Positions 1 to 19,381 of a stretch of 33,630 nucleotides of DNA are shown piece by piece. Under the pieces are notes generated by a model. The model was not told where the DNA came from. It ran no database searches and was given only the letters and a program-made list of their open reading frames with translations. Location: IMG/VR virus record IMGVR_UViG_3300006737_000091, positions 1-33,630 of that record; one strand, given 5' to 3'. This DNA comes from a virus. The first letter of the stretch is position 1. Every line of letters begins with the position of its first letter. The position numbers and the translations under genes are program-made.

Positions 1-2
1 GT

Positions 3-143
3 ATGAACTTAACTAATGATGATTTACAGACTATTCTTTATAGTTTAGAAGGATATATGCAAGGCAATGATGATACAGAATTAGTAAAAGAATTGGACAT
101 TATATGTGATATAATAGAAGTACAATTGAGGACAAAAGTATGA
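3..143 (+). CDS. small conserved-type hypothetical protein (46 aa)
   Basis: An ATG two bases into the window opens a 46-codon frame ending in TGA. The product is acidic and probably alpha-helical, starting MNLTNDDLQTILYSLEGYM and continuing with a GNDDTELVKEL stretch. From memory, proteins of this size and pattern (N-terminal LTNxELQ, then a Y-M-acidic stretch) are common in T4-like marine cyanophages, but their function is unknown. Its stop overlaps the next start in an ATGA arrangement, which suggests translational coupling. The upstream region, including any promoter or ribosome binding site, lies outside the window, so a longer N-terminus cannot be excluded. Confidence 0.6.
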   Translation: MNLTNDDLQTILYSLEGYMQGNDDTELVKELDIICDIIEVQLRTKV

Positions 144-319
144 ACAATGTCTCCCAGAATAGAGGTAGCAACTTTATAGCAACCATGACAGATTACACTT
201 ATTCAGATACATTCTACAATGCAATCGTACATGATGATTATTACTCTAAATGGTGTAGTTTTCCACAGATAGTGAGGAATAGTTGTGGAAAAGTATCAAT
301 TAACAGTGGAAAAGGTTAA
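140..319 (+). CDS. small hypothetical protein (59 aa), start overlaps previous stop
   Basis: This frame of 59 codons begins inside the stop of the preceding small gene (ATGA overlap). The middle has a Tyr/Asp-rich stretch (TDYTYSDTFYNAIVHDDYY). I do not recognise a family. An internal ATG at residue 16 (MTDYTYSD) is an alternative start. Its 3' third is made of DNA carrying an exact inverted repeat of TTTTCCACA, plus a third near copy, so the C-terminal residues may be dictated by a DNA signal rather than by protein function. Because coding and DNA-signal roles compete here, I hold the gene call only moderately. Confidence 0.4.
   Translation: MNNVSQNRGSNFIATMTDYTYSDTFYNAIVHDDYYSKWCSFPQIVRNSCGKVSINSGKG
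259..313. promoter_or_regulatory. cluster of DnaA-box-like sites (TTTTCCACA)
   Basis: TTTTCCACA occurs at 259-267 and its exact reverse complement TGTGGAAAA at 284-292, separated by 16 bases. A near copy, AGTGGAAAA (one mismatch), follows at 305-313. TTTTCCACA differs by one base from the E. coli DnaA box TTATCCACA, and to my knowledge it is the form reported for cyanobacterial replication origins. The cluster could be a DnaA-binding site, a repressor operator with dyad symmetry, or an RNA hairpin. I favour a protein-binding site because a further copy lies at 471-479. Confidence 0.45.
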
Positions 320-349
320 ACTAAATGTATATGAGTGTTTTTGTGAGGT

Positions 350-357
350 GATAAATA
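350..357 (+). promoter_or_regulatory. possible T4-type late promoter box (GATAAATA)
   Basis: GATAAATA matches the NATAAATA form seen before gp25, gp8, gp13, gp15 and the last gene. The next ATG (380) lies 22 bases after the box, within the 19-26 base spacing of those sites. The gene it would serve is doubtful, so the promoter is too. Confidence 0.3.
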
Positions 358-370
358 GGAGTCTTAATTG

Positions 371-400
371 GGTCACTAAATGATAGATTTTATAGTGATC
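371..400. other. inverted repeat / hairpin, first of an adjacent pair
   Basis: GGTCACTA (371-378) can pair with TAGTGATC (393-400) around a 14-base loop. In RNA this gives an 8-bp stem with one G-U pair. No T-tract follows, so it is not a standard terminator. It abuts the next hairpin without a gap. Confidence 0.4.
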
Positions 401-568
401 TTGGGGAGCAGTCTAACAGAAACTCCCCCAAATGTCAAGAGAGTTGTTGTTATGTTACTGAGAAATTATGTTTTCCACACATACAACATTTTATACATAA
501 TAGCACTTGACATGTATAGTGAATCACAGTATAATAACACTATAGAAACTAACACAATCTCCCCCTAA
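380..568 (+). CDS. doubtful small ORF (62 aa), hydrophobic
   Basis: A 62-codon open frame starts 22 bases after a late-promoter-like GATAAATA box. The predicted product has two hydrophobic patches (FIVILGSS near the start and VVVMLLRNYVF plus YNILYIIAL in the middle), so a membrane peptide is conceivable. Against it being a gene, the DNA also holds two adjacent inverted repeats, a TTTTCCACA copy and a full-consensus sigma70 promoter, and the product matches no family I know. It may simply be a non-coding control region without stops in this frame. Confidence 0.22.
   Translation: MIDFIVILGSSLTETPPNVKRVVVMLLRNYVFHTYNILYIIALDMYSESQYNNTIETNTISP
401..431. other. GC-rich inverted repeat / hairpin, second of an adjacent pair
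   Basis: TTGGGGAG (401-408) faces CTCCCCCAA (423-431) across a 14-base loop; the stem is complementary apart from one extra C. Such a G/C block stands out in this AT-rich DNA. It directly follows the hairpin at 371-400. No U-rich tail follows, which argues against intrinsic termination. A similar C-block, CTCCCCCTAA, recurs at 559-568 just before the next gene. Confidence 0.4.
471..479. promoter_or_regulatory. additional TTTTCCACA DnaA-box-like site
   Basis: This is a third exact copy of the 9-base word found in the cluster at 259-313. It lies about 30 bases upstream of the -35 element of the sigma70 promoter at 507-535, a position where a bound protein could affect that promoter. Confidence 0.4.
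507..535 (+). promoter_or_regulatory. exact-consensus sigma70 promoter (early)
   Basis: TTGACA (507-512) and TATAAT (530-535) are separated by exactly 17 bases, the full E. coli-type sigma70 consensus. Transcription would begin near 542 and read into the 51 aa gene at 574. T4-like cyanophages use host sigma70-type promoters for early genes, so this is probably a strong early promoter. Confidence 0.8.
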
Positions 569-573
569 GTTTC

Positions 574-729
574 ATGTCAGTTCTTTTCACTCCCACCACT
601 AATAAGACTGTGAGAGTAACACTAACTCTACAGGTACAAGATGATTTTAATGCAAGGCAAATTGACTGGAGAAAGTTATTTGAATTAGAGGACAATGAAG
701 AGGTGGAAAGTTATATTGAAGAACTGTGA
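574..729 (+). CDS. small conserved-type hypothetical protein (51 aa)
   Basis: A 51-codon ORF lies about 30 bases downstream of the predicted start site of the 507-535 promoter. The product begins MSVLFTPTTNKTVRVTLTL and continues VQDDFNARQIDWRKLFELE, ending in an acidic helix. The pattern of a beta strand (VRVTLTLxVQDDF), an IDW motif and a short acidic C-terminus resembles small proteins I recall from T4-like cyanophages; function unknown. No clear Shine-Dalgarno sequence precedes the ATG, as for many genes here. A CTCCCCCTAA block ends six bases before the start. The gene is too small for enzymatic activity and is more likely an early host-interaction factor (inference). Confidence 0.65.
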   Translation: MSVLFTPTTNKTVRVTLTLQVQDDFNARQIDWRKLFELEDNEEVESYIEEL

Positions 730-800
730 ATAACACACACTAAATGTTATTAGACCTGAGTAAGTCTCTAAACTATTCTGTACACTTTATTATGATGATT

Positions 801-905
801 ATGTCTAAGAACTTCGCACTTTTCTTGCTAGATGTTGTTGATACTGGAGCAGACATATTAACAGTCCTAGATGATATTGTAGAGACAGAAGATACAGTGT
901 TATAA
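801..905 (+). CDS. very small conserved-type hypothetical protein (34 aa)
   Basis: This 34-codon ORF encodes MSKNFALFLLDVVDTGADIL followed by TVLDDIVETEDTVL. The amphipathic LLDVVDTGADILTVLDDIV segment strongly resembles short proteins I recall from T4-like cyanophages. In-frame ATGs at 744, 792 and 795 would give longer forms; I chose 801 because the recognisable pattern starts there, but no ribosome binding site settles the point. The gene ends just before a terminator-like hairpin at 922-946 and probably closes the short early transcript started at 507-535. Function unknown. Confidence 0.55.
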   Translation: MSKNFALFLLDVVDTGADILTVLDDIVETEDTVL

Positions 906-921
906 GTTATAAGAACTGTGT

Positions 922-946
922 GGGTGCTATGTGTTAATTAGCACCC
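922..946 (+). terminator. probable Rho-independent terminator
   Basis: GGGTGCTA (922-929) and TAGCACCC (939-946) form a perfect 8-bp stem around a 9-base loop. It is followed by CTATTTTATG, a modest T-rich tail. It sits 16 bases after the stop of the 34 aa gene and could end the early transcript from 507-535. The broken T-run makes it a moderate call. Confidence 0.6.
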
Positions 947-1171
947 CTATTTTATGTGTGTTGGTGTTAGTGTATTGCCAGTTATTTGTGTGGGTGTGTG
1001 TTATTTTGTGGGGGGCGTGCGAAAAAAACCAAACTACCCTAACCTACAGAGGTGACAAATTGACATAGAGATATAGAGATATAAAAAAAAATTTTGCCTA
1101 AAAAAAATTGCCCATGAAGTTTTTCATTCTATTACCTTTCAGGATATTTAACTTTTGTATGTGGACTGCCC

Positions 1172-1200
1172 TTGGAGTAATTGCAGTGAGCATATATAAA
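1172..1200 (+). promoter_or_regulatory. possible promoter upstream of the 75 aa gene
   Basis: TATAAA (1195-1200) has a weak -35-like TTGGAG (1172-1177) 17 bases upstream. TATATAAA is also close to a late box. The gene starts 20 bases further on. The match is much weaker than at 507-535 or 1444-1472. Confidence 0.35.
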
Positions 1201-1219
1201 GTGTTTAATTGCTAATATT

Positions 1220-1447
1220 ATGGAGACAACCAGTTATCACATATATGCAAGAGACAGAGTATTATATTGCAATTTAAGTGAGGAAGATTTTGAGGAGAAA
1301 TGGCAACTACTGAATGTCATGGTAGGATTGCTCAAGACAGATTATACTGAGAGAGACTTATCATATATTAAGTTAGGTCCCAAAGCAGGAGTTGGAGGAC
1401 CAGGTAGGGTTATCTACAAACATAAGTGGGAAGAGGATTCTTATTGA
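1220..1447 (+). CDS. conserved-type hypothetical protein (75 aa)
   Basis: The 75 aa product starts METTSYHIYARDRVLYCNLS, then EEDFEEKWQLLNVMVGLLKT, and ends with a Gly-rich GVGGPGRVIYKHKW turn. The arrangement of a short beta hairpin with YARDR, an LSEEDFxxKW helix and a DYxxxDLSY motif is one I associate with a small family in T4-like cyanophages; its function is not known to me. Its TGA stop lies inside the -35 element of the promoter at 1444-1472. No Shine-Dalgarno sequence is visible. Probably a soluble cytoplasmic protein. Confidence 0.7.
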   Translation: METTSYHIYARDRVLYCNLSEEDFEEKWQLLNVMVGLLKTDYTERDLSYIKLGPKAGVGGPGRVIYKHKWEEDSY

Positions 1448-1472
1448 CATTCTACATATATGATAGTATAAT
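1444..1472 (+). promoter_or_regulatory. second exact-consensus sigma70 promoter
   Basis: TTGACA (1444-1449) and TATAAT (1467-1472) are again 17 bases apart. The stop codon of the preceding gene (1445-1447) lies within the -35 box. The predicted start near 1479 precedes the glycosyltransferase ATG at 1496; GAAGG at 1479-1483 may act as its ribosome binding site. Confidence 0.75.
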
Positions 1473-1495
1473 TGAATTGAAGGTATTACGAACTT

Positions 1496-2263
1496 ATGGC
1501 AAAAGGATTTACTGTGAAAGCAGCAGCACCTAAACCCAAGGCAGAGGATTGGGATTATGATGCAATCAAGGAGAGAATGAAAGGTAAGACAATAGTATTC
1601 TGTTTACCTGGTAGAGGATGTAGTTATATCTTTCTGAAGAACTTTGTACAACTATGTTTTGACATGGTACAGAATGGTATGTCTATTCAGATTAGTCAAG
1701 ACTATTCTTCAATGGTGAACTTTGCTAGATGTAAGGTTCTTGGTGCAAATGTACTCAGAGGACCAAAGCAAGTACCTTGGGATGGTAAATTAGAATATGA
1801 CTATCAGTTATGGATTGACTCTGATATTGTCTTTACCACAGAAAAGTTCTGGCAACTTTGTGACATGGCAATTCCTGCAGAGGGAGATGAGAGAAAGATC
1901 TCAGCAGGTTGGTATGCTACTGAAGATGGGACAACCACCTCAGTTGCTCACTGGTTAGAGGAAGATGATTTCAGAAAGAATGGTGGCGTAATGAATCATG
2001 AGACTGTGGAATCTATCAGTAAGAGAAGAAAGCCTTTCACAGTAGACTACACTGGTTTTGGATGGGTCTTGATTAAGAAGGGAGTCTTTGAGAATCTACC
2101 TTATCCTTGGTTTGCACCCAAGATGCAAGTGTTTGAGTCTGGGGCAGTGCAGGATATGTGTGGAGAGGATGTATCATTCTGCTTAGATGCAATTGAGCAA
2201 GGTGAGGAGATTTGGTGTGATCCAAGAATTAGAGTGGGTCATGAGAAAACAAGAGTTATCTAG
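1496..2263 (+). CDS. putative GT-A-type glycosyltransferase
   Basis: The 255 aa product resembles nucleotide-sugar glycosyltransferases. After a Lys/Ala/Pro-rich N-terminus comes a beta strand KTIVFCLPGR (31-40), a helix containing FLKNFVQLCFDM, and a hydrophobic strand ending in DSD at residues 108-110 (LWIDSDIVF), the expected DxD metal/sugar-nucleotide site. GFGWVLIKKGVF (about 188-199), GEDVSFC (about 223-229) and a late His in VGHEK fit the acceptor and metal-binding parts of GT-A folds. Proteins like this are frequent in T4-like marine phages, where they may modify DNA, virion proteins or the host surface; the substrate is unknown. It is preceded by a full-consensus sigma70 promoter, suggesting early expression, and closely followed by the 68 aa gene. 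Confidence 0.65.
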   Translation: MAKGFTVKAAAPKPKAEDWDYDAIKERMKGKTIVFCLPGRGCSYIFLKNFVQLCFDMVQNGMSIQISQDYSSMVNFARCKVLGANVLRGPKQVPWDGKLEYDYQLWIDSDIVFTTEKFWQLCDMAIPAEGDERKISAGWYATEDGTTTSVAHWLEEDDFRKNGGVMNHETVESISKRRKPFTVDYTGFGWVLIKKGVFENLPYPWFAPKMQVFESGAVQDMCGEDVSFCLDAIEQGEEIWCDPRIRVGHEKTRVI

Positions 2264-2273
2264 GGAGCCTCTC

Positions 2274-2480
2274 ATGACACTATCAAAACAAGTGCAAGAC
2301 TCACTGGATGATGCACAAGAAAACTTAAGAAATGCTCTTGCTTTTAGTGCAAGAAGTGAGGAACCATATGTGAGCAAACACATTGCTGACCTGATGCATT
2401 CCATAGAAAACATTAAACATGTCACCAATCTATTGGCGATATCTGAAAAAGTAATGAAAGATCTGGAGGATCAAGACTAA
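2274..2480 (+). CDS. small alpha-helical hypothetical protein (68 aa)
   Basis: I chose the ATG at 2274 because AGGGAG lies six bases upstream and because a longer frame from 2187 would overlap the glycosyltransferase by 77 bases. The 68 aa product (MTLSKQVQDSLDDAQENLRN at its start) appears entirely helical and acidic, with heptad-like Leu/Ile spacing (LMHSIENIKHVTNLLAISEKV), so a helical bundle or dimeric coiled coil is likely. No family is recognised. Its TAA overlaps the next ATG by one base (TAATG), suggesting coupled translation. Confidence 0.7.
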   Translation: MTLSKQVQDSLDDAQENLRNALAFSARSEEPYVSKHIADLMHSIENIKHVTNLLAISEKVMKDLEDQD

Positions 2481-2623
2481 TGCCAATTCGTAAATCTCTC
2501 TCTGGTAATGACTTTGTAGAGAGCATACCCAAGAAGACTAGTCAAGGATATGGTAAGCACACCAAGTATGCTGCTACCAGTTCTAACAAAGCAAAGAAAA
2601 AGTACAGGGGGCAAGGTAAGTAA
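2480..2623 (+). CDS. small basic conserved-type protein (47 aa)
   Basis: This 47 aa protein starts at the ATG overlapping the previous TAA (TAATG), and its own TAA overlaps the start of the next gene in the same way. The sequence begins MPIRKSLSGNDFVESIPKKT and is very basic at the C-terminus (SNKAKKKYRGQGK). The GYGKHTKYAATSSNKAKKKY region is a pattern I recall as highly conserved in T4-like cyanophages. The charge suggests nucleic-acid binding or ribosome/RNA polymerase interaction, but this is inference. Its tight linkage to the 216 aa protein suggests joint expression. Confidence 0.7.
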   Translation: MPIRKSLSGNDFVESIPKKTSQGYGKHTKYAATSSNKAKKKYRGQGK

Positions 2624-3273
2624 TGAGTTCACTCATCTGTAATCTCCCTGCCATTGAGGTATGGGTAAGAAAGGAGTATCTAACTGACTTCAAACATGGT
2701 TTTGGTGAATTTACAAAGGGCGTCTGGGTATCTGCTAAAAGCATGCCTGGACGTGCTTTTTATTTTGAGACATATTTACCAGAATATGCTGCAATGTTTG
2801 ACAAGTTACCTATCAGTGCATTCTTAACTGATCCTGAGATACCAGATCCTGATATGAATCTGTTTAATCTACAGTTTTGGAACTGCATGGATTATGGGGT
2901 CACAGCAATCCAAAAGCAATTCATAGGTTCTATGTCATATGAATTGTATACAAGGGATCATGGGACCATGAAAGGCACTTATGTTGCCACTCTGGATAAC
3001 TATCATGACAACCCTGACTTTGTAGATTACTCTACAAGTGAAACACCTGCAGAACATAAGTCACATAACCTCATTGAACTTGATAATGGACAGTATGCAC
3101 TGTACCCAAACAATAGAATGAGAATATATGATAATAGTATTACACCTAAAGAACCTAAACAACCTGACTTTAAGGTGTCTACACAGTATTATCAGGTAGA
3201 AAATGGTAGAGAGTATGATGGAATGGGTGATCAGGATGATTATTTCTGGAAGATTGCGAAAGAACGTGAATAA
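2623..3273 (+). CDS. conserved-type hypothetical protein (216 aa), before the baseplate block
   Basis: The 216 aa product begins MSSLICNLPAIEVWVRKEYL and contains motifs such as GVWVSAKSMPGRAFYFETYL (about 33-52), LFNLQFWNCMDYG (about 86-98), NGQYALYPNNRMRI and a Tyr-rich C-terminus. I recognise it as a type found beside the baseplate genes of T4-like cyanophages but know no function. It does not resemble T4 gp53, gp48 or gp54 in the motifs I can recall. There is no signal peptide or membrane segment. The start overlaps the previous stop, with AAGG upstream. The TAA stop is part of the late box in front of gene 25. Confidence 0.7.
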   Translation: MSSLICNLPAIEVWVRKEYLTDFKHGFGEFTKGVWVSAKSMPGRAFYFETYLPEYAAMFDKLPISAFLTDPEIPDPDMNLFNLQFWNCMDYGVTAIQKQFIGSMSYELYTRDHGTMKGTYVATLDNYHDNPDFVDYSTSETPAEHKSHNLIELDNGQYALYPNNRMRIYDNSITPKEPKQPDFKVSTQYYQVENGREYDGMGDQDDYFWKIAKERE

Positions 3274-3297: not shown

Positions 3298-3699
3298 ATG
3301 CCTGTAGAAAGGGTTAGTAGGGGATTTAAGGACCTGAGTATGACATTTCAGGTCAATCCTATCAATTCAGACTTGATCGCAACCAAAAATGAGACTGCTA
3401 TTGCTCGTTCTGTAAGGAATTTAGTAATTACTAGACCTGGTGAAAGATTTTTTAACCCAAATCTAGGTTCCAGAGTCCATGAATTGCTATTTGAGAATAT
3501 GGATGACATAACTGCTTCTCTAATTGAGGATGAAATTAGGGATACCATTGATAATTATGAACCACGTGTAAAATTAAGATCAGTAAAAGCAATTCCTGAC
3601 TTTGATGGCAATGCTTTTGATGTGAAAATTACATATGATATCATAGGAATTGATGCTAGTCCTCAACAATTAGCATTTGCACTACAGTCAACTAGATAA
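3298..3699 (+). CDS. 25: baseplate wedge subunit gp25
   Basis: At 133 aa this matches T4 gp25 (132 aa), which binds the gp6 dimer and helps trigger sheath assembly at the baseplate periphery. The central region contains the family hallmark TRPGERFFNPNLGSRVHELL-like stretch (residues about 45-64), with the PGE(R)xFxPxxGSxxxxLLFE pattern shared with lysozyme-like T6SS TssE proteins. The C-terminal part (EDEIRDTIDNYEPRVKL) also fits. The ATG follows a late box by 21 bases without an obvious Shine-Dalgarno sequence. Its stop is directly followed by the ATG of gene 6 with no gap, so the two are presumably coupled and stoichiometrically linked in the wedge. Confidence 0.93.
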   Translation: MPVERVSRGFKDLSMTFQVNPINSDLIATKNETAIARSVRNLVITRPGERFFNPNLGSRVHELLFENMDDITASLIEDEIRDTIDNYEPRVKLRSVKAIPDFDGNAFDVKITYDIIGIDASPQQLAFALQSTR

Positions 3700-5754
3700 A
3701 TGGCACTAGTAAACTTTACAAATCTGGATTTTGATCAAATAAAAACTTCTTTGAAGGATTATTTGCGTGCAAATTCTAATTTCACTGATTATGATTTTGA
3801 AGGATCTAATCTTTCTACCATACTTGATGTATTAGCATACAATACTTACATAAATTCCTACAATGCTAACATGATTAGCAATGAGGTATTCATTGATAGT
3901 GCCACTTTAAGAGAAAATGTAGTAGCTTTAGCAAGAAATATTGGTTATACACCTAGATCTGTCACTTCTGCAAAGGCTATTGTCTCATTTTTTGTAGATA
4001 CCACTGGATTTACCACTAAACCTGTTACACTTACACTTAAAAAAGGCATAGTAGCTACTTCTGCATCTACTTTTGGGTCAGAAAGTTACTCATTTTGTGT
4101 TCCAAGTGATATTACAGTGCCTGTGGTTGATGGAATTGCTACATTTGCTGATGTGGAGATCTATGAAGGGACATTTTTAACTTCAAACTTTGTTGTTTCT
4201 GCAGAAAACCCTGCACCACCATCAAGATACATCCTTCAGAACCCAAATATTGACACTTCTACCTTAGAAGTGCAAGTTCGTGAGACTCAAGCAAACACTT
4301 CTTCTAAAAAATATGTATTTTCAGATACTTTAATAGAAGTTACCTCCTCTTCATGTGTATATTTCATTCAAGAAGTAGAAGATCAGAGATATGAACTCAT
4401 TTTTGGTGATGGCGTCTTTGGTAAAAAGTTAGAAGCACTTAATTTCATTGAAGTTTCATATATTACAGCCACTGGTGCTGCTGCAAATGATATTTCTTCA
4501 TTCTCATTCAATGGTAGAATTGTAGATAACAATAATAACCTAGTAAGTAGTGGAATTTCTATATTTACAACTATAAATGGTTCTACAGGTGGTAAAGAAA
4601 TTGAATCTGTGGACTCAATTAAGCGTTATGCCCCTAAAATCTATTCTACATTCAATAGAGCAGTCACTGCAGCAGATTATGAGGCACTCATACCTAAAAT
4701 ATACCCTGAAACTGAGTCTGTATCAGTTTTTGGAGGTGAAGATTTGGTTCCTCCAAAATATGGAAAGGTTTTTATCACTATAAAACCCTTTTTTGGACCT
4801 TTTGTGCCAGATGCAATCAAAAATAACTTAAATAACATTTTAAGAAAATATTCTGTTGCTGGAATAGTCACTGAAATACAAGATTTGAAGTTTTTGTTCA
4901 TTGAAGCTGATATTAATGCATATTTTAACCCAAGTTTAACTCAAAGTGCAAATTCTCTTAGAACGCAAATATCTAACAACATAAATGCATATGCTAGATC
5001 ATCTGAATTGAATAAATATGGTGCTAAATTTAAATATAGTAGATTTCAAGCAGTTGTAGATAATACAAGTGACTCTGTAACATCAAATATCACAAAAATT
5101 CAAATGCGTCGTGATATGAAACCTGCTTTGAATACAAATGCAGAATATGAGTTGTGTTTTGGAAATGCATTCTATGTAAAGAGTATAAATGGATATAATA
5201 TTAAGTCATCTGGATTTAGAGTGTTTGGACAACCCACAACTGTCTTTTTAAGTGACCTTCCTAATGCAGATAAGAAAACAGGCAACCTATTTTTATTCAC
5301 ATTACAATCTAGAGGAACTCCTGTCATAGTTTCTGGAAATATGGGTACAATTGATTATCAAAAAGCAGAAATATTGATAAAACCAATTAATATTGTTGGA
5401 ACGTCTAAAAAAGTTCAAGACATACCAATTATAGAAGTTTCTGGATGTCCTAAATCAAATGATGTGATTGGATTGAAAGATTTATATCTACAATTAGATG
5501 TTAATAATAGTACCATTGATATGATTGCTGATAATGTTGAATCAGGAGATGATAGATCTGGGGTTAATTACACAGCTACCTCAAGTTATGTAAATGGTGA
5601 TTTAGCAAGATTAACTGAAGAAGAAAGAAAAAATATTACCATTCTTTCCTCAGATACATATGTGATAGGGGATACTAATTTGCAACTTCTAGGTGGAACT
5701 AGCACTGCATCTTCATCATCTTCCTCTTCTACTACATCAATATCATCATATTAA
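3700..5754 (+). CDS. 6: baseplate wedge subunit gp6 (baseplate J family)
   Basis: The 684 aa product is close to T4 gp6 (660 aa), the wedge protein whose dimers form the ring joining the six wedges. The N-terminus, with FDQIKTSLKDYLRANSNFTD and GSNLSTILDVLAYNTYINSY, is typical of the family, as is the central AVTAADYEALIPKIYPETES motif (about 322-341) of the baseplate J-like domain. It begins directly after gp25. The C-terminus ends in an unusual Ser/Thr tail (about residues 667-684, including SSSSSSSTTSISSY), which I do not expect in gp6 and which may be a flexible linker or a remnant. A 31-base gap separates it from the giant gene. Confidence 0.92.
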   Translation: MALVNFTNLDFDQIKTSLKDYLRANSNFTDYDFEGSNLSTILDVLAYNTYINSYNANMISNEVFIDSATLRENVVALARNIGYTPRSVTSAKAIVSFFVDTTGFTTKPVTLTLKKGIVATSASTFGSESYSFCVPSDITVPVVDGIATFADVEIYEGTFLTSNFVVSAENPAPPSRYILQNPNIDTSTLEVQVRETQANTSSKKYVFSDTLIEVTSSSCVYFIQEVEDQRYELIFGDGVFGKKLEALNFIEVSYITATGAAANDISSFSFNGRIVDNNNNLVSSGISIFTTINGSTGGKEIESVDSIKRYAPKIYSTFNRAVTAADYEALIPKIYPETESVSVFGGEDLVPPKYGKVFITIKPFFGPFVPDAIKNNLNNILRKYSVAGIVTEIQDLKFLFIEADINAYFNPSLTQSANSLRTQISNNINAYARSSELNKYGAKFKYSRFQAVVDNTSDSVTSNITKIQMRRDMKPALNTNAEYELCFGNAFYVKSINGYNIKSSGFRVFGQPTTVFLSDLPNADKKTGNLFLFTLQSRGTPVIVSGNMGTIDYQKAEILIKPINIVGTSKKVQDIPIIEVSGCPKSNDVIGLKDLYLQLDVNNSTIDMIADNVESGDDRSGVNYTATSSYVNGDLARLTEEERKNITILSSDTYVIGDTNLQLLGGTSTASSSSSSSTTSISSY

Positions 5755-5785: not shown

Positions 5786-8700
5786 ATGTCAGACAATACA
5801 AGAGTCAAAATTAGTTCAGTTGTTAAAAATCAACTGCCAGATTTTATAAGAGCAGATTTTCCACTTGCTGGTGAATTTTTAGACCAATATTATACTGCCA
5901 TAGAAAATCAAGGATCTACACTTGACCTCTTGCAAAATATTGATCAGTATATAAAAATTGATGAGTTAGTAGACCTTGTAGACTCTACTACTTTATCTGG
6001 TAATGTTGGAATAACAAACGATGTTATAGATGTTAAATCTACAACTGGATTTCCTGAGACATATGGATTGCTTGAGATTGATGATGAGATTATAACATAT
6101 ACTGGAATCACTACTAACTCATTTACTGGGTGTGCTAGAGGATTTAGTGGTATTACATCGTATAGAAGTATTAATAAACCAGATTGTCTTGTATTTTCTC
6201 AATCTGGCATTGCTACACACTCTACAGATGCAACTGTCAAAAACTTAAGTGTTCTTTTCTTAAAAGAATTCTTTAAGAAGGTAAAAAAACAAATTACACC
6301 AGGATTTGAAGAAAGACAACTTTCTAGCGATATAGATAAGAGATTATTCATTAAGCAATCAAAAGATTTTTACTCCTCAAAGGGAACAGATCAATCTTTT
6401 GAAATTTTGTTTAGAGCTTTGTATGGAAAAGATGTAGAAGTTATAAAACCAAGAGATTTTCTCTTTATACCATCAAACGCTGACTATAAAGTATCAAAAC
6501 AATTAGTAGTAGAAACTATTGAGGGTAATCCTCAAGATTTAATTAATAGAAACTTATTTCAAGATAATGTATTCAATTTCCCTAAAGCAAATGGTGCTAT
6601 TAGTGGTATAGAAAAAATTACAAGAGGAGATAAAACCTATCATAGGTTAAGTCTAGACTTTAATCCTAATTTAGATTCAATAAGTGGTGATTTTTCTATA
6701 CATCCTAGCACCAAATTAGTAACTCCTGTTTCTGTGGGTGCTACTGTTCTGAATGTGGATTCAACAGTTGGATTTGGAACTACAGGAGTTTTGATAGCAG
6801 ATTATATTGATGGATCTTTTAGTACTATAAATTATACATCAAAATCTTTAAATCAATTCTATGGATGCACTGGAATTGATAAAAATATTTCATCAACTCA
6901 AGATTTAAGAATAGATTCATTTGCTTATGGTTTTTCTGGAAGAGGAACAGAGGATATAGTAAAAGTTAAGGTTACAGGTGTTTTGTCACGTTTAAATTAT
7001 GAATTTGGAGGAAGTTTTTATAATGAAGTAGGAAATATTATTGAACCAAAAGGATTAGGATCTGTTTCTAAGAGTCAAGTAACTGAAAACTTATTTTCCA
7101 ATATTTCAGCTACTTACAATGTAGGATCTATTGAACTTATTGACTCATCTAACTTTACATATAAATTAAACCTTATTAACAACCATGATTTTAAATCTGG
7201 TGATGACGCTTTGATAGATGGACTATCTTGTGAAATTATTTCATTGATAAGTTCTAAAGAAGTATTGATTAAGGGTTCTGGTGAGTTAAATGAAAATAGA
7301 TCATATAAAATTCAAAGATTATTGTCAAATGCTAAGTTAAGCAACTATCCTGATAGTAGTATCTTTACCACTAACATTCAGAACTCTTATTTGGACCAAG
7401 GTTGTGTTTACATAGCATCTCCATCAATTCCAAGTTACTTTAATGATGCTTTAGACATCAGAGAAACAGATATTAAGTTCTCTGGATCATTTGTAGAAGA
7501 TACTGAAATAACAATCAACAATCATGGACTCATAACAGGTGATAATGTTACTTATGTAAATGGTGGTGATGATAACAAGTTAGATATTGATGAAAGTGAG
7601 TATTTTGTTAAAAAAGTAGATATCAATACTATTAAACTTTCTAAGAGTAGTGCAAACATCTCAAATGACATATTTGTTACTTTTAGTGGAACTGTAACTG
7701 ATAATAAATTTGAACTTACTAGATTTGCCCAAAAATCAATACAATCTCAAAAATTAATTAGAAAGATTGATACTCCAGTATCTGCTTTAGTTAATAAACC
7801 TACTCCAAGAGGAAAAACTGGTATTTTGGTAAATGGAGTTGAAATTCTTAATTATAAGTCAAATGATGTTGTTTATTATGGTGCTATTGAAGAAATTCCA
7901 GTTACTAGTGGAGGAGATAACTATGATGTCATAAATCCACCTATTTTGGGCATTACAGATGGAGTTGGAGTTGGAGCTTCTGCTTATTGTGAAGTTCAAG
8001 GTTCTGTAGAGAGAATAGATGTAATAGATGAGGGATTTGACTATCTTGATATACCTACCATAAAAGTAAGTGGCGGAAATGGATCTGGGTGCATAGCATT
8101 TGCTAATTTAATTCAAAAAGATCATTCTTTAACATTTGATTCTACTGAAACTGGAGGAAGCGTAAATCTTACAAATAATACAATAGGATTCACTACATTC
8201 CACAAATTCAGAGATGGGGAACTTGTAACTTACATTACAGACAAACAAACTGCAATATCTGGTTTAACAACCAACGCTCCTTATTTTTGTTCTATTAAAG
8301 ACTCAACTACTGTATCATTACATGATAATTTCTCAGATGCTATCTCTGGCATTTCTAGTGTTAACTTAACTGCTTTTGGAGTAGGAATACAAGAGATTAA
8401 GTGTGCTATTAAGAAAAGAGTTGTTAGTTCTATAAGTATTGGAAGTTCTGGATCTGGTTATACTAATAAACTAACTTCTGTCACATCATCTGGAATTAAT
8501 ACTTCTACTGGAATAATTAACATTCCAAATCATGGATATAAGACAGGAGAACTGATTAGATATGATAATAAGACTACGCCAATAGTTGGACTCTCTACTC
8601 TAACTGATTACTATGTTACTGCAGTAGATGGAGGTTCATTTAAGTTATCTGCTGTTGGAGTTGGTTCTACACCAGCTAGTTTTCATGTGAGAAATAAAGA

Positions 8701-11700
8701 ATATCTTGAATTGTTCTCTGGTGGTTCTGGTATTCATGAATTCAATTATCCACCTGTTACAGTGTCATTAACTGGTCATATAGGTGTATCTACTCTATCT
8801 GGTCAAAACTTTAATGCATTATTACGTCCTGTAGTGAGAGGATCTATAAAGTCAGTTTATATTGAAAGTGGTGGAATTGGATATGGATCATCAGATGTTA
8901 TTAATTATAATAGGCAACCAACCTTTACACCTAAGAGTGGAAAGAACGCTCAATTGGTTCCAATCATTAGCATTGATGGCAAATTAACAGAAGTTATAGT
9001 ATTGAATTCTGGAACTGAATACAACTCACCACCAGATATAAAGTTAGTAGGAAAAGGAAAAGGAACTAAAATTATTCCAATCTTAAAAGGTGGTAGTATT
9101 GAATCTGTAAAGATAATCAATGCTGGCATAGGACACACTTCAACTGATGCTAATATTACAGTAACATCTAACGGAAGTGGAGCTAAATTTTTCTCTAATC
9201 CAAAAACATGGACAATCAACAGTGTTGAAAGATTAATACAAAATGATCAAATTACCACTGATGATGGAATAGTTTCTAATGGTTTAAGTGATGAATATGG
9301 TTTGCAATACTCACACCTATATGCCCCTAGAAAATTAAGACAATCTGTGGTGGTTAAAAAGGCTGTAGGTGATAAAGAAGTTTTTGTTGCTGATCTAGAT
9401 TTACAAGAAGATATTGAACAAGTATCAGTGACTCATTCTCCAATAATTGGATGGGCATATGATGGTGCTCCAATTTATGGTCCATATGGATATACTAGAT
9501 CTTCTGGGGGTCCAATTAAAATTCTTGAGTCTGGATACTCTCCAACCATATCTAGTGTAAGACCTAATCCTCTAACTGCTACAGGAGAGCAAATATACTC
9601 TGAGGGATTTTTTGTGGAGGATTACATCTTCTCTGAAGATAAAGATTTAGATGAACACAATGGTAGATTCTGCAAAACTCCAGAGTATCCCAATGGTGTT
9701 TATGCATATTTTGCACCAATAAATTCAAGTGTAAATGATGATGAGGGTGCATTCAAAAACTTTAGAAAACCACAGTTTCCATATTTTATAGGTAATTCAT
9801 ATAAACATGAACCAATTGAATTTAACTTCAAAAGCACTTCAAATCAAGATCTTTTAGATTTAAATAAGACAAATTTTGTTAGAAATACTGGACCATACAA
9901 TTTTCTTTTAGAAGATACTAGTTATGATTTTCTTATTAATCCTAGCAATATTCATAAACAACGTACTCTTGTTACATCCACTACTTCAGGAGTTATAGAT
10001 TCTGTAGGAATTAATACTGGTGGATCTAGATATAAAGTTGGAGATGAAGTAGTTTTTGAAGATGCAGGATCAAGTGGATATGGAGCTAAAGCATCAGTTA
10101 AGTTTATTCAAGGTAAAACTATAAGTCAAGTTAGTGCTGGATTTACTGAATTTTCTAATGTAGAATTTATACTAGGAAAATATGCTGGACAATTTGTTGG
10201 GTATACTACTGTACCTCATAGTTTTCATGCTGTAGAAAACGTATTTGTTTCTGGATTAAGCACTGCAGGTATAAGAAACAACTCTTCAAAGATTATTGGA
10301 ATATCTACTGATACCTTTAAATTATTCAAATCAGTTAATGCATCATCATCAACTGGCATAGTAACCTATTTTAGTTTAGATAGTGTTTCATCTATAAGAG
10401 AAAATGATATTTTAGGAATAGGAACAGAGCAAGTAAAAGTATTAAATGTTGAGAATGATTTATCTAGAATTAGAGTTATTAGAGAACATAATTCTACTGT
10501 GGGTAATGCTCATACAGCAAATAGTCTTATTTCACAAAAACCAAGAAATTTTTCTTTCATATCTCCAACCAAACTAGAAAATGCTGATTTAAGATTAAAT
10601 AAAGAATTGTATTTTAATCCAGTAGAATCAGTTGGATTGGGAACTCTTTCTGGTGTTGGAATTGGATCAACTTTATCATTCTCAAATCCAGGCACAGGTA
10701 TAAGTGAGATATTTATTCCTACTAAATCTGTTTTTATTAAAAATCATGGATTGTTAACTGGAGATGCTTTAACATATTCTACTAATGCAGGAGCAGCTGT
10801 ATCAGTATCAACTAATGGAATTGATGGATTTGCCTTATCTCAAGGACAAACAGTATTTGCAGCTAGACTTAGTAAAGATTTAATTGGAATTGCTACTTCA
10901 AGAGTAGGATTAGGTTCTACAGGATCTTTTGTGGGAATTGATAGCACAACAACAGTATCCACTCTATTCTTTATTGGAATAGGAACTGGTGTATCTCATA
11001 GTCTTAAAACCAACTATGATAATGTATTGACAGGTTCAGTAAGTAGATCATCAGTAACAGTATCCACATCTTCTACTCATGGTCTTAAGGTAAATGATGA
11101 TATTGTATTAAATATTCAACCAGGAATAACAACAACTATAAAGGTAGCATATAATGATTATAATAGAAGACTAGTAATTGATCCTAGAACATTTGCTTCT
11201 GGAGATGTAAGTATTGGAAATGATACTATAACAATTGCTAGACATGGTTATGATAGTGGACAAAAAGTTATCCACACTGCAACTACTTCATCTGGTGGTT
11301 TAGTTGACAATAGAATTTATTATGTTGCTGTAATAGATAAAAATACAATAAAGTTATCTAACAATTATTATGATGCAATACACTTAGAACCAAAAGTAAT
11401 TAATATTACCAGTGCCTCTGCTGGAACTATTTCTCCAATTAATCCTCCAATAAAATTAGAGAGAAATGAAACAGTGTTATTTGATCTCTCTGACTCATCT
11501 TTATCATTTATTGATGGTGGAGTTTCATATAGTGCTTTTGATTTCAATCTTTATGATGATTCAAATTTAAGTAATTTATTTGTAACATCAGGAAAGACAG
11601 ATGATTTTAATGTGGTTAAAACTGGTGGGGTAGGTATAAGTGCTAATTCTAATTTGACAATAAAAAATGTAAATCAAATTGATAAAGTATTATACTATAA

Positions 11701-14700
11701 CTTGATTCCAGTAAACAAAACGTTAAATTCACCACTTAAAACTGAAATTATTAGAGACACAGAAAATATTAATAATTCTAACTCTGCTAGATTAAGTCCT
11801 AGTGTTTTGACAGGTGCTCATTCTTTAGTAGGAGTTGGAACCACAACATTTTCATTTGTGTCCCCTCATCTTCCTCAAAAATTAGAGTATGTCTCATCTG
11901 ATGGTGTACTATCATATGTTACTAATTCTAAGCATGTTGAAGGAGCTATATCTAATGTTCAAGTTGAAGATAGAGGATATCAATATAGAACTCTGCCTGG
12001 AATAAGCACTATAATATCAAAAAATGGTAATAGTGCCATCCTAGAAACTAGAGGAAGATCTATTGGACAAATAAGTAAAACAAATATTCAAGATATTGGT
12101 TTTGATTATTCTGCAGATAGAACACTTAGACCTGAAGCTAACATACCACAGTTAATTAAATTAGATCTTCTTACATCATTAGATTCTATTGGTATTACAT
12201 CTGTTGGTAACAATTATCTAGAAGCTCCTGATTTGGTCCTTTTAGATGGAATAACAAATAAAGAAGTTGGAGATATTGATCTAGAATATAAATTAGGTGA
12301 CACTCAAGTTAGTATTTTGAGTAATACTAAAACATTGAATAATGTTACTCCTAAAATTATACCTACTAGCAACTCTAATGGATTTACTATTAACAGTATA
12401 GATTATGATGATGGCAATAAAAATGTAACATTAACAATTGGAGCTAGTTTTAGTGATGCTGCAAATTATCCATTTGAGGTGGGTAAGAAAGTTATGATTG
12501 AGGGTGTTAGTGTTGGGGTAGGTAGTACTGGTAGAGGATTTAATAGTGAGAATTATGATTTTAGATTATTTGAAATTCTAGCAACAGATCCTAACATTGG
12601 TGGAACATTAGGAACAGTAAGATACAACTTATCAAATATAATAGCAGATGGTGAAACTCCAGGTACTTTCCAACCTAACCTTTCATCAGCTAAAATAGTT
12701 GCTGAGAAAGATTTTCCAATTTTTGATATTAAGTTGAAAGTTGATGAATTTGAGAAAGGTGAAGATGTTGTTTCTGGATCTAAGAGAGGATCTATACAAT
12801 CTTGGAATAATTCTTATGGTTATCTTAGAGTGTCTTCAACACAAGACTTTGAGATTGGAAAATCCTTTATAGGAGAATCTTCAGGAACTAGAGGAACTAT
12901 AACAGAAGTTTTAGTGGATAATTCTTTATATGATATTAATTCATCATCCATAGTTCAAGAGGGTTTCCAAAATAATACTGGATTCTTAAATAGCAATTTA
13001 CAAAGAGTATTTGATAGTGATTACTATCAATATTTCTCATATTCTTTAAAATCAGAATGTGAGTTTGATAAGTGGAATGAACCAGTCTCTGCTTTAAATC
13101 ATACTGCAGGATTTAAAAAATTTAGTGATTTAATTATAAGAAATGAAGTAGAAGTGGGAATAGCAATTTCTCAATCAGAAACTAAATTTGAGGTTATCAA
13201 TGATTTGATTTCTGTTATGGATATGAACACAGTATTTGATTTTGATTTAGTAAGAGAAAAAACCTTAACTATTGATTCTAAAGTCATATCTGATGAATTA
13301 GTTTTTGATTCTAAGATCTTAAAAGATTTTAATGAATCTATTGGTAATAGAGTATTGACTATTGATGATATTAGTACAGATTTTAATAGTAATGCTAGAA
13401 CAGATGCTTTCCAATCTGTTGATAGTTTTACTCTAGCAAGCGTAAGATATAGAAAGTATATTGCTTTCATAAGAGACAAGAGATTTACCAAAGAGAGACA
13501 AATTTTATTAGTTTCTGCTCTTCATGATGATGTTGGTAACATTTTCCTTAATCAATATGGTAGAGTTGAAACCAACACTGACTTAGGTGAGTTTGGTGGT
13601 GATCTAGGTTCATTTGACATGGATGTAGCGGGTGATGATGGAAGATTATTATTCTTCCCTAAAAAGTTTAAATTCAACAATTATGATGTTTCTAATGTTG
13701 CATTTAATATTTCTGAAAGTGTTGCTGGTGTTGGATCTACTGGATTGGGTGGTATTGTTAATATTGTTAGTAGCACTGCTACCATACCTTTAGGAATCAC
13801 CACACAGTACAATATAGTATCCTTTGCCACCACTTATAGAGGATCTAAGATATTAGTAGCATATGCTGCTAGTGATGCATCATACTGGGAACATGATGAA
13901 ATAACTTTGGTTCATGATGGAACTAATGTGGATTTAGTAGAGTATGGACAATTAACAACATCAAATGTTGGTAGTGCATCTGGTGAACCTGGTCTTGGAA
14001 CTTATAGTGCATACATTGCTGGTGGTAGAGTTAATTTAGATCTGCATCCAACAGTGAGCACTGCAAGCACATATGTTGCTAATACTGTTCATATAGATTT
14101 TGGAAATGCTTCATCTGCTGGTGTTGGAACCACATCATTAAATACTTCTCAATTAGATTCAAAATTTACTTCTATATCTGCTAGTGGATCTCCATCTGCA
14201 ACTACAGTAGCATCATATGAATCTGAAACCTTTAATGGTGCTTATTATATTGTAAGTGTTGAAGATACTACCAATAGTCAATATCAAGTATCTGAGGTTA
14301 TATGTGTTGATGATGGAACTGAGACATATGTTACTGAGTATGCTATCAATCAAACTAATGCTAATTTAGGTGATTTCAGTGCTGCCATTTCTGGAGACTT
14401 TACTAATCTTACATTTACTCCACTAGCAAGTGCTAATGTACAGGTCAGAGTATTCCAAGCTGCTTTAAGACTGGTAAATGAAGCAAGTGATGTTACTGAG
14501 ATAGATTTAACTAATGCCACTATTGACACTGGATTTGGTGCTTATACTGCTACTGAGACTGATGTTAAGAGAGCATTTGAACTTAAGCATAGACAGTTGC
14601 CAATATTCAAGAGAGACTTTGTTGGTAGTGCTACTACAACAGTTGATCTAGTTGAAGATACAGTTAGAATACCTGATCACTACTTTGTAACTGGAGAAAA

Positions 14701-17700
14701 GTTAAATTACAGATATACTGGATCTGGAACAACTTCTGCTATCATAATTGAAGAACAAGCAATAGCAGGTTATGGTACTACTGACAAATTACCAGATGAA
14801 GTCTTTGCTATTAAAGTTGATGACTCCACTCTTAGATTTGCTACTTCTGCAGAAAATGCATTAAAGACAAATCCTACTTATTTGGATATTACTGCAGTAG
14901 GTGTAGGAACTTCTCATTCCTTTACTTCATCTAAACAAAATTCAAGATGTATTTTGAGTATTGATAATGTTATTCAATCACCAATAGTTTCTACTTCTGT
15001 AACTACAACTATTAGTGCTGACGTATCTTCTACTACAGATAAAATCAAGTTATCAGGTATTACCTCCATAACTGGTGGTGATATGTTGAAACTTGGTAGT
15101 GAAATAATGAAGGTCAATTCTGTTGGATTAGGTGCTACTAATGTTCTTCTTGTTACTAGACCTTGGATGGGAACTCAAGTAACATCTCATAGCAATGGAT
15201 CTTTGGTTACTAAAGTAGATGGTGCTTATAATATTGTAGATAGCACTGTTAATTTCTATACTGCTCCTGTTGGACTAACTCCTATTTCAACAACAACTAA
15301 TGAACCAGATGAGAGAGATTTTGTTGGAATAGCAACTCACTCAACATTTAGTGCAAGATCATTTATGAGATCTGGCATTACTGGTAGTTCTAATGAACCA
15401 TATGCTGGCAACTTTATATTTGATGATATTTCTGCTAACTTTACTGGATTGACAACTGAATTTACTCTTCAATCTGAAGGAAGCAATGTAGCAGGTTTCT
15501 CTACAAATAATGCTCTAATATTGGTCAATCAAGTTGCTCAAGGTCCACAAAGATTTACTGGTGGTGTATCTGTGCCTGGTGATTATACATTGATAGAGAG
15601 TGTAGGAATTACCAGTATTCAGTTTACAGGATCTATTTCTTCTGTAGCATCTGATCCTAATAGTTCTAATGTTCCACTTGGTGGTGTTATTGTTTCTGTA
15701 GGATCTACAGAGGGTCTAGGTTATCAACCACTAGTTGCTGCAGGTGGTACTGCAGTTGTTTCTGGATTAGGAACAATTAGTTCAATAAGCATTGGTAATA
15801 GTGGTTCTGGTTATAGATCTGGTATTCAGACAGTGGTAAATGTTGGTGTTCAAACACTGAGCACAACATCACCTAATATTGAGTTTATTGGTACTGCTGC
15901 TATCAGTGGTGGTAATATTGTAAGTGTTGCTATTACTAATCCTGGCACTGGTTATACATCTACCAATCCTCCATTGGTTGTAATAGATGAACCACTATCT
16001 TATAGTAATATGCCTTTGTTCTATTCTTCAAATCAATCTGGAGTAGGATCTGAAGCTAGAGCAAATGTAGTTGTTGGTTTGGGTGGTAGTGTTATTGATT
16101 TTGAAATTACAAATCAAGGATATGGTTATGGAGAAACTCAAAAACTAACCATAGGTGTTGGTGGTTCTGTTGGTATTCCAACTGCAGGTGTTGCTGAGTT
16201 TAGAGAATTCCAATTAACTGTTCAGGAAACAGTGAGTGATAGTTTTGTTGGATTTACTGTTGGTGATTTCCAAGTATTAGATCCTCTTGATGATTTGTTT
16301 GATGGTAAGACAGTTTCATTTGCATTGAAACTAAATGGAGCACAACAAACAATTCAAGCTCAACCAGGTTCAAATATAGATGTTGAAGTTTTAATATTAG
16401 TGTTTATTAATGATATTCTTCAAGTTCCTAATGAGGGTTATGAATTTAAAGGTGGTAGTTTTATTACCTTTAAAGAAGCACCAAAAGAGGGTGACACCTC
16501 CAAAATTCTATTCTATCAAGGAACTGGATCTGTTGATGTTACCAGTGTTGATATATTAGAAACAGTTAAAGCAGGAGATGAATTAAAATTATACGATCAA
16601 GATTTTTCTTTGGAGGAAAATGAAAGAACAGTTACTATTGTTAACTCATCTGATACTGTTTCTACTAATTTGTATGCTGGACCAGGTATCACTACAAATG
16701 AGAGTTTCCAAAGAGCTGTAACTTGGTCTAAGCAAATTGAAGATAAATTCATTGATGGTCAGGCTGTCACTAAAGATAGACCACATTATGAACCATTGAT
16801 ATATCCTATTACAAATATTATTCAACCTGTAGGTGTTGGATCTACTGTAATATTTGTTTCTAACATTAGAACCTTCTTTGATAATTCTAAAGAAAATTAT
16901 GATACGCAAAATGATATTAGAATCATATCTCAAGATAGTTTAGTTGGAGCATCTGCAACTGCCTTTGTTTCTGTTGCTGGAACAGTCACCTCATTTGATA
17001 TAACAAATCCAGGTGTTGGATACACCATAGCACCATCTGTATCTATTACAACTCCAATAGGATTGACAACTTCTCAAGGTGCTAGAGCAACTGCTACTAT
17101 TAGTGGAGTTGGAACTGTCAATGCTATTACTGTTTCCTTTGGTGGAACCACAACTGGATTTGCCTACACTAGCATTTCTGCTCCATCAGTTTTGATAGGT
17201 AAACCAAAATCTATCACATCTTTTGAAACTATCAAGGATGTAGATATATCTGGTGATTTTGGAATCATATCTGGTATTTCTACTACATCTGTTGGAGTAG
17301 CATCTACTGGTATAGTTTTTGATTTACTACTTCCAAAAGATTCTCTATTCAGAGACTCTGATGTAGTTGGCACTGCTATTACTGTCAGTGGAATACAAAC
17401 TGGATATTACTTTACAGTCTTTAATTCTAATGTAGGTGCTTCAGTAACTTCTCTATATCAAGATGGAACTGTGGTGGGTATTGGAACATCATTTATAGAT
17501 AATGTATATGAAGTTGCTCAAGTTTCTATTGCTCAAACTATGGGCATAGGAATTGGATTGACCTATGTTGCACAAGTAACAGTCAGTGTTCAAGATTATA
17601 ATGGATTATCTGGACTTGGACACAGTGAGTTCTTTGGAGAGTATAGTTGGGGCAGAATAGTCACTGCACCTAGAGCATCTGCTAGAACATTTAATTCATA

Positions 17701-17812: not shown

Positions 17813-19381
17813 ATGTCAGCAATTATAACTGATCAACTTAGAATATTGAATGCGAAGAATTTTGTTTCTACTGCAACTTCTTCAATTAATTCATATTATT
17901 CTTTTGTTGGTTTGCCTAATGCTACTAATTATTCTTCAACATGGGAATCAAATCCTCCTGCACCAAAGGATAGTTTTGATCAAGAAAATGATTATTGGGA
18001 TACTATGGTAGCACTGAAGAAAATTACTTCTTCAGATGTGCGTAGAGTGGTTACTAAGCACACATGGGCATCAGGTATAACTTATGACATGTATAGAGGT
18101 GATATTAGTAGAACAAACATTTCTAAACCATCTAATGCTACTAACATATATGCAGCAAAATATTTTATAGTAAATGAAGATTTTAAGGTTTATATATGCT
18201 TACAAAATGGAACAGATCCAGAAAACTTATCAGGTAGACCTTCTCTAGATCAACCAACATTTACAGATCTTGAACCAAAAACAGCAGGAGATAGTGGTGA
18301 TGGTTATATATGGAAATATCTTTATACAATAAAACCAGGTGATATTTCTAAGTTTGATTCTACCAATTTTATGCCAGTTCCTACTGATTGGGAAACAAAC
18401 ACAGAGGATGCTGCTGTTAGAGATAATGCATCTAGTAGTGGTCAATTAAAAATTGCTACCATTATCAATAGAGGATCTGGAATAGGAACTGCAAATAGAA
18501 CATATACTGGTGTGCCTATTAGTGGAGATGGATCAGGAGCAGAAGCAACCATAGTTATTAATAATGATGCTAAAGTAGAATCTATCAATATAGCAAAAGG
18601 TGGATCTGGATATACATATGGAACTGTTGATTTGGTTAGAGGAGGAGTTCCTACTGGAACAACAGTGCCAGTCTTTAATGTAATTGTTCCACCTCAAGGT
18701 GGACATGGAGCAGATGTTTATAGAGAGTTAGGAGCGACTAATGTATTGATATACTCTAAAATAGAAAATGATAATGAAAATCCTGATTTTATCACTGGCA
18801 ACCAAATTGCTAGAATAGGAGTAGTAGAAAACCCTCATGCTTTTGAGTCTAATGCAAACTTAACTTTATCCAAAGCAAGTGCTCTTTATGCATTAAAATT
18901 AGTTGGAGCAGGTTTTACTACTGCTACTTTTGATCTAGATGGTGAATTTACTCAAACTATAGGAATAGGATCTACTGCTGTAGGAAGAGTTGTTTCTTAT
19001 GATCAAGTAACTGGTGTATTGAAATATTGGCAAGATAAAAGTTTAGTTGGATTTAATAGTGATGGGTCATTGAAAACTGATCCTACATATGGTCTTTCAT
19101 TACACAGATTTACTGCTAATCCAACTAGTGGAGGAAATGTAAATATAGCTAGTAATGAAGGTACACTAGGAATAGATACTAATTTTGGAACATCAGGAAG
19201 TCCTGGTATAAGTACAGTAATAAATAATAGAAAATATTTTCTTGGACAGAGTTTTGTTCAGGGTGTTGCTAACCCTGAAGTTAAGAAGTACTCTGGAAAT
19301 ATAATTTATGTTGATAACAGACCTTCTATAACTAGGTCTGCAAATCAAAGAGAAGATATCAAAGTTATTTTGCAATTCTAA
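17813..19381 (+). CDS. 8: baseplate wedge subunit gp8-like (522 aa)
   Basis: The position after gene 7 and the motifs identify a gp8-type wedge protein. The N-terminus (MSAIITDQLRILNAKNFVST), NDYWDTMVALKKI, YICLQNGTDPENLSGRPS and GDGYIWKYLYTI (about 163-174) are typical of the family; T4 gp8 is 334 aa. The extra length is partly an inserted beta-rich region, about residues 213-290, with GSGIG and KGGSGYTYG units like those of the giant protein. The PPQGGHGADVYRELGA stretch (about 295-310) resembles the conserved continuation in cyanophage versions. The protein dimerises in T4 and joins gp7, gp6 and gp10 within the wedge. The start is 18 bases after a late box; the next gene begins 7 bases after its stop. 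Confidence 0.85.
   Translation: MSAIITDQLRILNAKNFVSTATSSINSYYSFVGLPNATNYSSTWESNPPAPKDSFDQENDYWDTMVALKKITSSDVRRVVTKHTWASGITYDMYRGDISRTNISKPSNATNIYAAKYFIVNEDFKVYICLQNGTDPENLSGRPSLDQPTFTDLEPKTAGDSGDGYIWKYLYTIKPGDISKFDSTNFMPVPTDWETNTEDAAVRDNASSSGQLKIATIINRGSGIGTANRTYTGVPISGDGSGAEATIVINNDAKVESINIAKGGSGYTYGTVDLVRGGVPTGTTVPVFNVIVPPQGGHGADVYRELGATNVLIYSKIENDNENPDFITGNQIARIGVVENPHAFESNANLTLSKASALYALKLVGAGFTTATFDLDGEFTQTIGIGSTAVGRVVSYDQVTGVLKYWQDKSLVGFNSDGSLKTDPTYGLSLHRFTANPTSGGNVNIASNEGTLGIDTNFGTSGSPGISTVINNRKYFLGQSFVQGVANPEVKKYSGNIIYVDNRPSITRSANQREDIKVILQF

Follow-up and report, generated by a model that had tools for sequence, protein, structure and literature searches.

The stretch of DNA analysed here, referred to as the window, is the whole of IMG/VR record IMGVR_UViG_3300006737_000091 (33,630 bases), a fragment of a T4-like cyanomyovirus; the 33.6-kb record is probably an incomplete virus genome. 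Its open reading frames (ORFs) include gp25, gp6, a further baseplate wedge protein and head-tail connector proteins (Table 1), and T4-like cyanophages such as S-SM2, P-TIM68 and Bellamy are closest to them. Two very long ORFs (4001 and 2643 aa; window 5786-17791 and 19388-27319) lie within the baseplate gene cluster, the 4001-aa ORF occupying the position of the annotated baseplate wedge initiator (gp7) in S-SM2. The left end of the window carries a cluster of boxes and two promoter sequences, and since the contig starts at base 1, 258 bp are visible upstream of the cluster. At the counterpart place in annotated relatives, a run of tiny genes lies on one side and structural genes on the other.

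Table 1. Features of the window discussed in the text (positions count from the first base of the window).
Feature	Position	Strand	Remarks
59-codon (59-aa) ORF overlapping boxes 1-3	140-319	+	no homologue in fetched cyanophage loci
Box 1, putative DnaA box, TTTTCCACA exact	259-267	+	first arm of convergent pair conserved in other cyanomyoviruses
Box 2, putative DnaA box, TTTTCCACA exact	284-292	-	forms a convergent pair with box 1; starts 25 bp apart, spacer of 16 bases (inside the 14-16 peak)
Stretch separating boxes from leftward promoter	293-372		A+T 0.70 vs 0.66 for the genome
Box 3, putative DnaA box, TTTTCCACT, one mismatch	305-313	-	tandem with box 2, 21 bp (two helical turns); tandem spacer peak 12-13
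Leftward sigma70-type promoter, TTGACA-N17-TAGACT, extended -10 (TG)	410-438	-	directed at the boxes; start predicted near 403
Box 4, putative DnaA box, TTTTCCACA exact	471-479	+	28 bp upstream of the rightward promoter -35
Rightward sigma70-type promoter, TTGACA-N17-TATAAT	507-535	+	12/12 matches; predicted start near 542
51-aa gene behind rightward promoter	574-729	+	conserved; 88 homologous hits in fetched loci
gp25	3298-3699		ORF of window
gp6	3700-5754		ORF of window
Further baseplate wedge protein	17813-19381		ORF of window

Boxes and promoters at the left end of the window

The cluster contains three exact copies of the 9-base word TTTTCCACA and one near copy, all four of which had been reported in the first-pass annotation and were recovered here at the same places. 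The accompanying claim that the window has no other exact copy held over all 33,630 bases. By itself, the count of TTTTCCACA in the window is weak evidence: shuffled windows had a mean of 0.76 copies, and three copies anywhere were obtained in 5 of 100 shuffles. The clustering is unusual, TTTTCCACA being one of only four 9-mers of the window with three copies inside 221 bp, and the other three are A/T-rich. The position of box 4 is not general among relatives. The cluster had been placed in a control region, a description that stands, with promoters beside the boxes, and that can be refined, as the copies between 259 and 313 fall inside the 59-codon ORF; a search of cyanophage loci found no homologue of this ORF, which is therefore unlikely to be a conserved gene. 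The A+T enrichment between the boxes and the leftward promoter is slight in the window and clear at the counterpart place in Syn9, S-PM2 and S-RIM8, and the stretch is a weak candidate for an unwinding region.

The promoter annotated earlier at 507-535 proved to be a perfect sigma70-type sequence, and its position is conserved in relatives. Among relatives, 43 of 78 cases have a strong same-direction promoter downstream of the boxes and 3 of 78 have one upstream (background 11%). Behind the 51-aa gene lies a second conserved tiny gene (53 aa; window 744-905; 26 hits in fetched loci). A noncoding block (GCGAAAAAAACCAAACTACCCTAACCTACAGAGG...; window 1011-1112), lying about 0.5 kb beyond the rightward promoter, is strongly conserved across many cyanomyovirus loci (77-100% identity over 28-149 bp), and an Rfam search of window 1-3000, which includes this block, gave no match. 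A second perfect sigma70-type promoter (TTGACA-N17-TATAAT, 12/12; window 1444-1472) lies immediately 5' of a glycosyltransferase-like gene at 1496.

Between the boxes and the rightward promoter sits a conserved block (393-440) that reads, on the minus strand, as TTGACA-N17 with TGnTAnnnT, in which the positions most important to sigma70 are constant. This leftward promoter block is present in the window, S-SM2, S-SCSM1, Bellamy and S-SKS1, and of 13 loci fetched independently, 11 have the promoter, mostly in the same position, compared with 3.3% of random windows. The Syn9 group shows a clear -35 only, and P-TIM68 carries the block on the opposite side of the boxes. Bellamy has both promoters and no boxes, indicating that promoters and boxes are separable. 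A reading of the block as an RNA hairpin was dropped, as no structure emerged when 42 sequences were folded to a consensus and the invariant positions match the minus-strand extended -10 promoter. The conserved minus-strand promoter, together with the helical phasing and the box-less relatives that keep the promoters, had been absent from the first-pass annotation.

Conservation and helical phasing of the box cluster

The analysis of 25 complete cyanomyovirus genomes covered the number of exact TTTTCCACA copies and the position of gp25. In ten of these (Syn9, S-PM2, S-RIM8, S-RIM12, S-MbCM100, S-ShM2, S-SM1, Syn19, P-TIM68 and S-SM2), a close pair of exact copies lies ~2-9 kb upstream of gp25, the paired boxes of Syn9 being at 52.6 kb; the remaining copies in these genomes are isolated, with the exception of S-ShM2, which has a second tandem pair nearby. 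Two further genomes carry variant arrays upstream of gp25: in S-SCSM1 an exact box lies 12 bp from one with a single mismatch, and S-SKS1 has TTATCCACA, TTATCCACA and TTTTCCACA in tandem at 21-bp steps. No box cluster was found in the other 13 complete genomes. In S-SKS1, ~8.5-8.9 kb upstream of gp25, the three tandem boxes are followed by about five 22-bp A+T-rich repeats (CTCTTATAAACCTTCTCTAATA) and then by divergent promoters, a layout that is the most origin-like among those examined.

Between genomes the flanks vary while the box words persist, and the word is unevenly spread over phage genomes, so that the even density that had been named as an argument against the cluster was not found. 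When every 9-mer was tested, TTTTCCACA was the sole word paired within 40 bp in all ten genomes, the runner-up being paired in six. These ten genomes were picked for having the pair; the selection-free check used 13 loci that were retrieved through another protein, farther downstream, with the 51-aa gene as the anchor of the alignment. The box cluster was present upstream of this gene in 6 of the 13 loci, compared with 2.4% of random windows. Roughly half of the relatives lack the boxes but retain the promoters. Overall, conservation of the copies, whose absence had been named as a refuting result, was borne out in complete genomes, in IMG/VR and in the fetched loci, and the box cluster is a conserved module at a fixed place in about half of the T4-like cyanophages examined and is not due to chance.

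A scan of IMG/VR for convergent TTTTCCACA pairs returned at least 120 loci. Cyanomyovirus-like loci made up 79 of the 120 matches listed for TTTTCCACA and 3 of the 120 listed for the reversed word. A control word with one base changed gave 99 stretches, 44 of them on cyanomyovirus contigs, so the cyanomyovirus share alone is weak evidence; 31 of these 44 are a single conserved coding site with a 25-base spacer. Among the matches listed, the convergent spacers of 72 dereplicated cyanomyovirus contexts peak at 3-5, 14-16 and 24-26 bases, with a period of 10.5 bp (R = 0.86; none of 20,000 uniform random draws was as extreme), and further peaks, for longer convergent spacers, fall at 27, 35-37 and 46-47. 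Tandem spacers (102 contexts, among the matches listed) peak at 3, 12-13, 23-24 and 33, while divergent pairs among the matches listed have two fixed spacings and no period. The one-base-changed word did not reproduce the helical phasing, and for the reversed word one 10-base spacer dominates among the matches listed. The spacing of the boxes is thus compatible with cooperative binding on one helix face, phasing over several turns being as expected for one protein binding in this manner.

Two other groups of sites were seen in these scans. The reversed word occurs frequently as a palindrome, ACACCTTTT-N10-AAAAGGTGT, in unrelated viral contigs, with an identical spacer at 87 of 122 sites among the matches listed, and is possibly an operator. 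In another set of contigs, mostly rich in G+C and with no clear cyanomyovirus genes, the spacer between convergent TTTTCCACA boxes is fixed at 18 bases.

The box word and host DnaA

The first-pass annotation had given the word as the cyanobacterial form of the DnaA box, which is supported by published work and by the oriC regions of the hosts. That TTTTCCACA is a DnaA box has been shown by binding in Cyanothece, and it is also reported as such in Synechococcus elongatus and Anabaena (PMC4674748). In the family of the likely hosts, the same word is clustered beside dnaN: about 21 of 37 loci contain exact copies, and most of the rest contain near copies. A convergent pair of boxes lies beside dnaN in 12 of these 37 loci, with a start spacing of mostly 20-21 bp. 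Host genomes have 6-17 exact copies each. The variant TTATCCACA of S-SKS1 is the E. coli-type DnaA box. DnaA domain IV (the C-terminal domain) was detected in 52 of 61 host-family genomes, and a gene with this domain in 0 of 25 complete phage genomes, indicating that these phages encode no DnaA-like initiator. Judged by its sequence, the identity of the array as host-type DnaA boxes is well supported. Since the word is shared with cyanobacteria and with host oriC, and the hosts encode DnaA while none of the 25 phages does, host DnaA appears to be the likeliest reader of the boxes, and we consider it probable that host DnaA binds this region.

The array shares with cyanobacterial oriC next to dnaN (PMC4674748) the 9-base word, its clustering and the convergent pairs. 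It differs in being carried by a lytic phage, in having no adjacent dnaA or dnaN and in its flanking divergent promoters, and its pairs are spaced at 13-14 or 23-25 bp as opposed to 20-21 bp at host oriC.

Possible functions of the array

The reading we favour over the others, at about even odds, is that the cluster, as an array of host-type DnaA boxes in an early control region, is part of a replication origin of the phage. The mechanism we infer would start soon after infection, when host DnaA would bind cooperatively to the helically phased boxes and host RNA polymerase would start transcription from the two adjacent divergent sigma70-type promoters; heading into the bound boxes, the leftward transcript may then aid duplex opening or serve as a primer, after which the T4-type replication proteins of the phage would take over. 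Such a combination of oriC and T4-origin traits is one that the phased boxes, the nearby A+T-rich stretch in several phages, the repeats of S-SKS1 and the divergent promoters together resemble. In T4, oriE contains evenly spaced repeats and requires an early-type promoter (PMC3016281); S-SKS1 also has repeats together with such a promoter sequence, and T4 origins, oriE above all, share with the array a T4-like phage and a control region with an early-type promoter. In contrast to the array, no DnaA boxes have been described in T4 origins, which start from R-loops, and the 12-nt repeats of oriE differ in sequence from the boxes and have no assigned protein. For Syn9, which carries paired boxes, a single theta origin has been predicted according to a passage of a review (PMC2984593); that passage mentions no DnaA boxes. 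Among the papers searched we found no experimentally mapped cyanomyovirus origin, and a text search of the literature, which covered few subscription-journal papers, found no report of DnaA boxes in T4-like cyanophages.

Several results count against an origin. The GC-skew minimum proposed as a check gave no support, as neither GC nor AT skew showed a minimum or a switch in strand composition at the boxes, whether raw or at fourfold-degenerate positions; the missing switch is weak evidence, because recombination-driven replication could erase skew. The weakness of the A+T-rich stretch in the window and the unclear leftward promoter of the Syn9 group were also counted against this reading. Since 13 of the 25 complete genomes are without a cluster and Bellamy has the promoters only, not every cyanomyovirus needs the boxes.

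The same arrangement might instead be a switch, in which host DnaA bound to the array regulates the divergent early promoters or halts the leftward transcript before the early genes. DnaA is a known bacterial transcription factor, the strong rightward promoter follows the boxes far more often than it precedes them (43/78 vs 3/78), the leftward promoter is directed at the boxes, and box 4 of the window is only 28 bp from the rightward -35. Yet the box pair usually lies 150-250 bp from that -35, at a distance that varies (157-248) without an obvious rule, and the promoters hold their position in relatives without boxes; transcription control is a possible but rather unlikely role for the array. 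It is improbable that the boxes are a decoy that, on many phage genome copies, titrates host DnaA and stops initiation on the host chromosome. A few boxes multiplied by many phage copies could exceed the 6-17 exact copies of a host genome, but titration needs number rather than a single fixed place, a fixed promoter neighbourhood or just two to four boxes, and would predict more boxes, scattered over the phage genome.

Helical phasing alone would suit any protein that binds cooperatively, and few of the small early genes have a known function, which leaves room for an operator whose reader is encoded by the phage and recognises a DnaA-box-like word by coincidence. Against this, the word is the host DnaA box and is paired likewise at host oriC, its variation to TTATCCACA in S-SKS1 is a change that DnaA tolerates, and a DnaA-like domain was found in 0 of 25 phages, so that we attach little probability to such an operator. 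That the cluster is due to chance, or to the codons of a short gene, is highly implausible: boxes 1-3 do overlap an ORF and the count in the single window is not extreme, but the overlapping ORF is not conserved, and the many genomes, the 9-mer test, the phasing and the fixed position all speak against it. At the family level, a chance cluster was refuted by the 9-mer test, the phasing and the selection-free check of loci.

DnaA boxes in foreign replicons are already known, and the origins of plasmids and temperate phages that have them mostly need an initiator encoded by the replicon. As proposed here, the array would be similar in that a foreign replicon recruits host DnaA; it differs in that no replicon-encoded initiator was identified beside it and in that the group is strictly lytic and T4-like. 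Returning to the origin reading, we put forward tentatively that a large share of marine T4-like cyanophages may begin replication at a DnaA-dependent origin with phased boxes, divergent host-sigma70 promoters and takeover by a T4-type replisome, a hybrid of the bacterial oriC and the transcript-primed origin of T4. The possible use of host DnaA matters, since T4-like phages are regarded as self-sufficient in replication. As a conserved and precisely located candidate that occurs in isolates for which laboratory hosts exist (Syn9, S-PM2, S-RIM8 and S-MbCM100), the array makes the origin question directly testable, and the lineages with and without boxes provide a natural comparison. Were host DnaA used, the synthesis of phage DNA would be tied to the replication state of the host, which could help to explain light-dependent infection.
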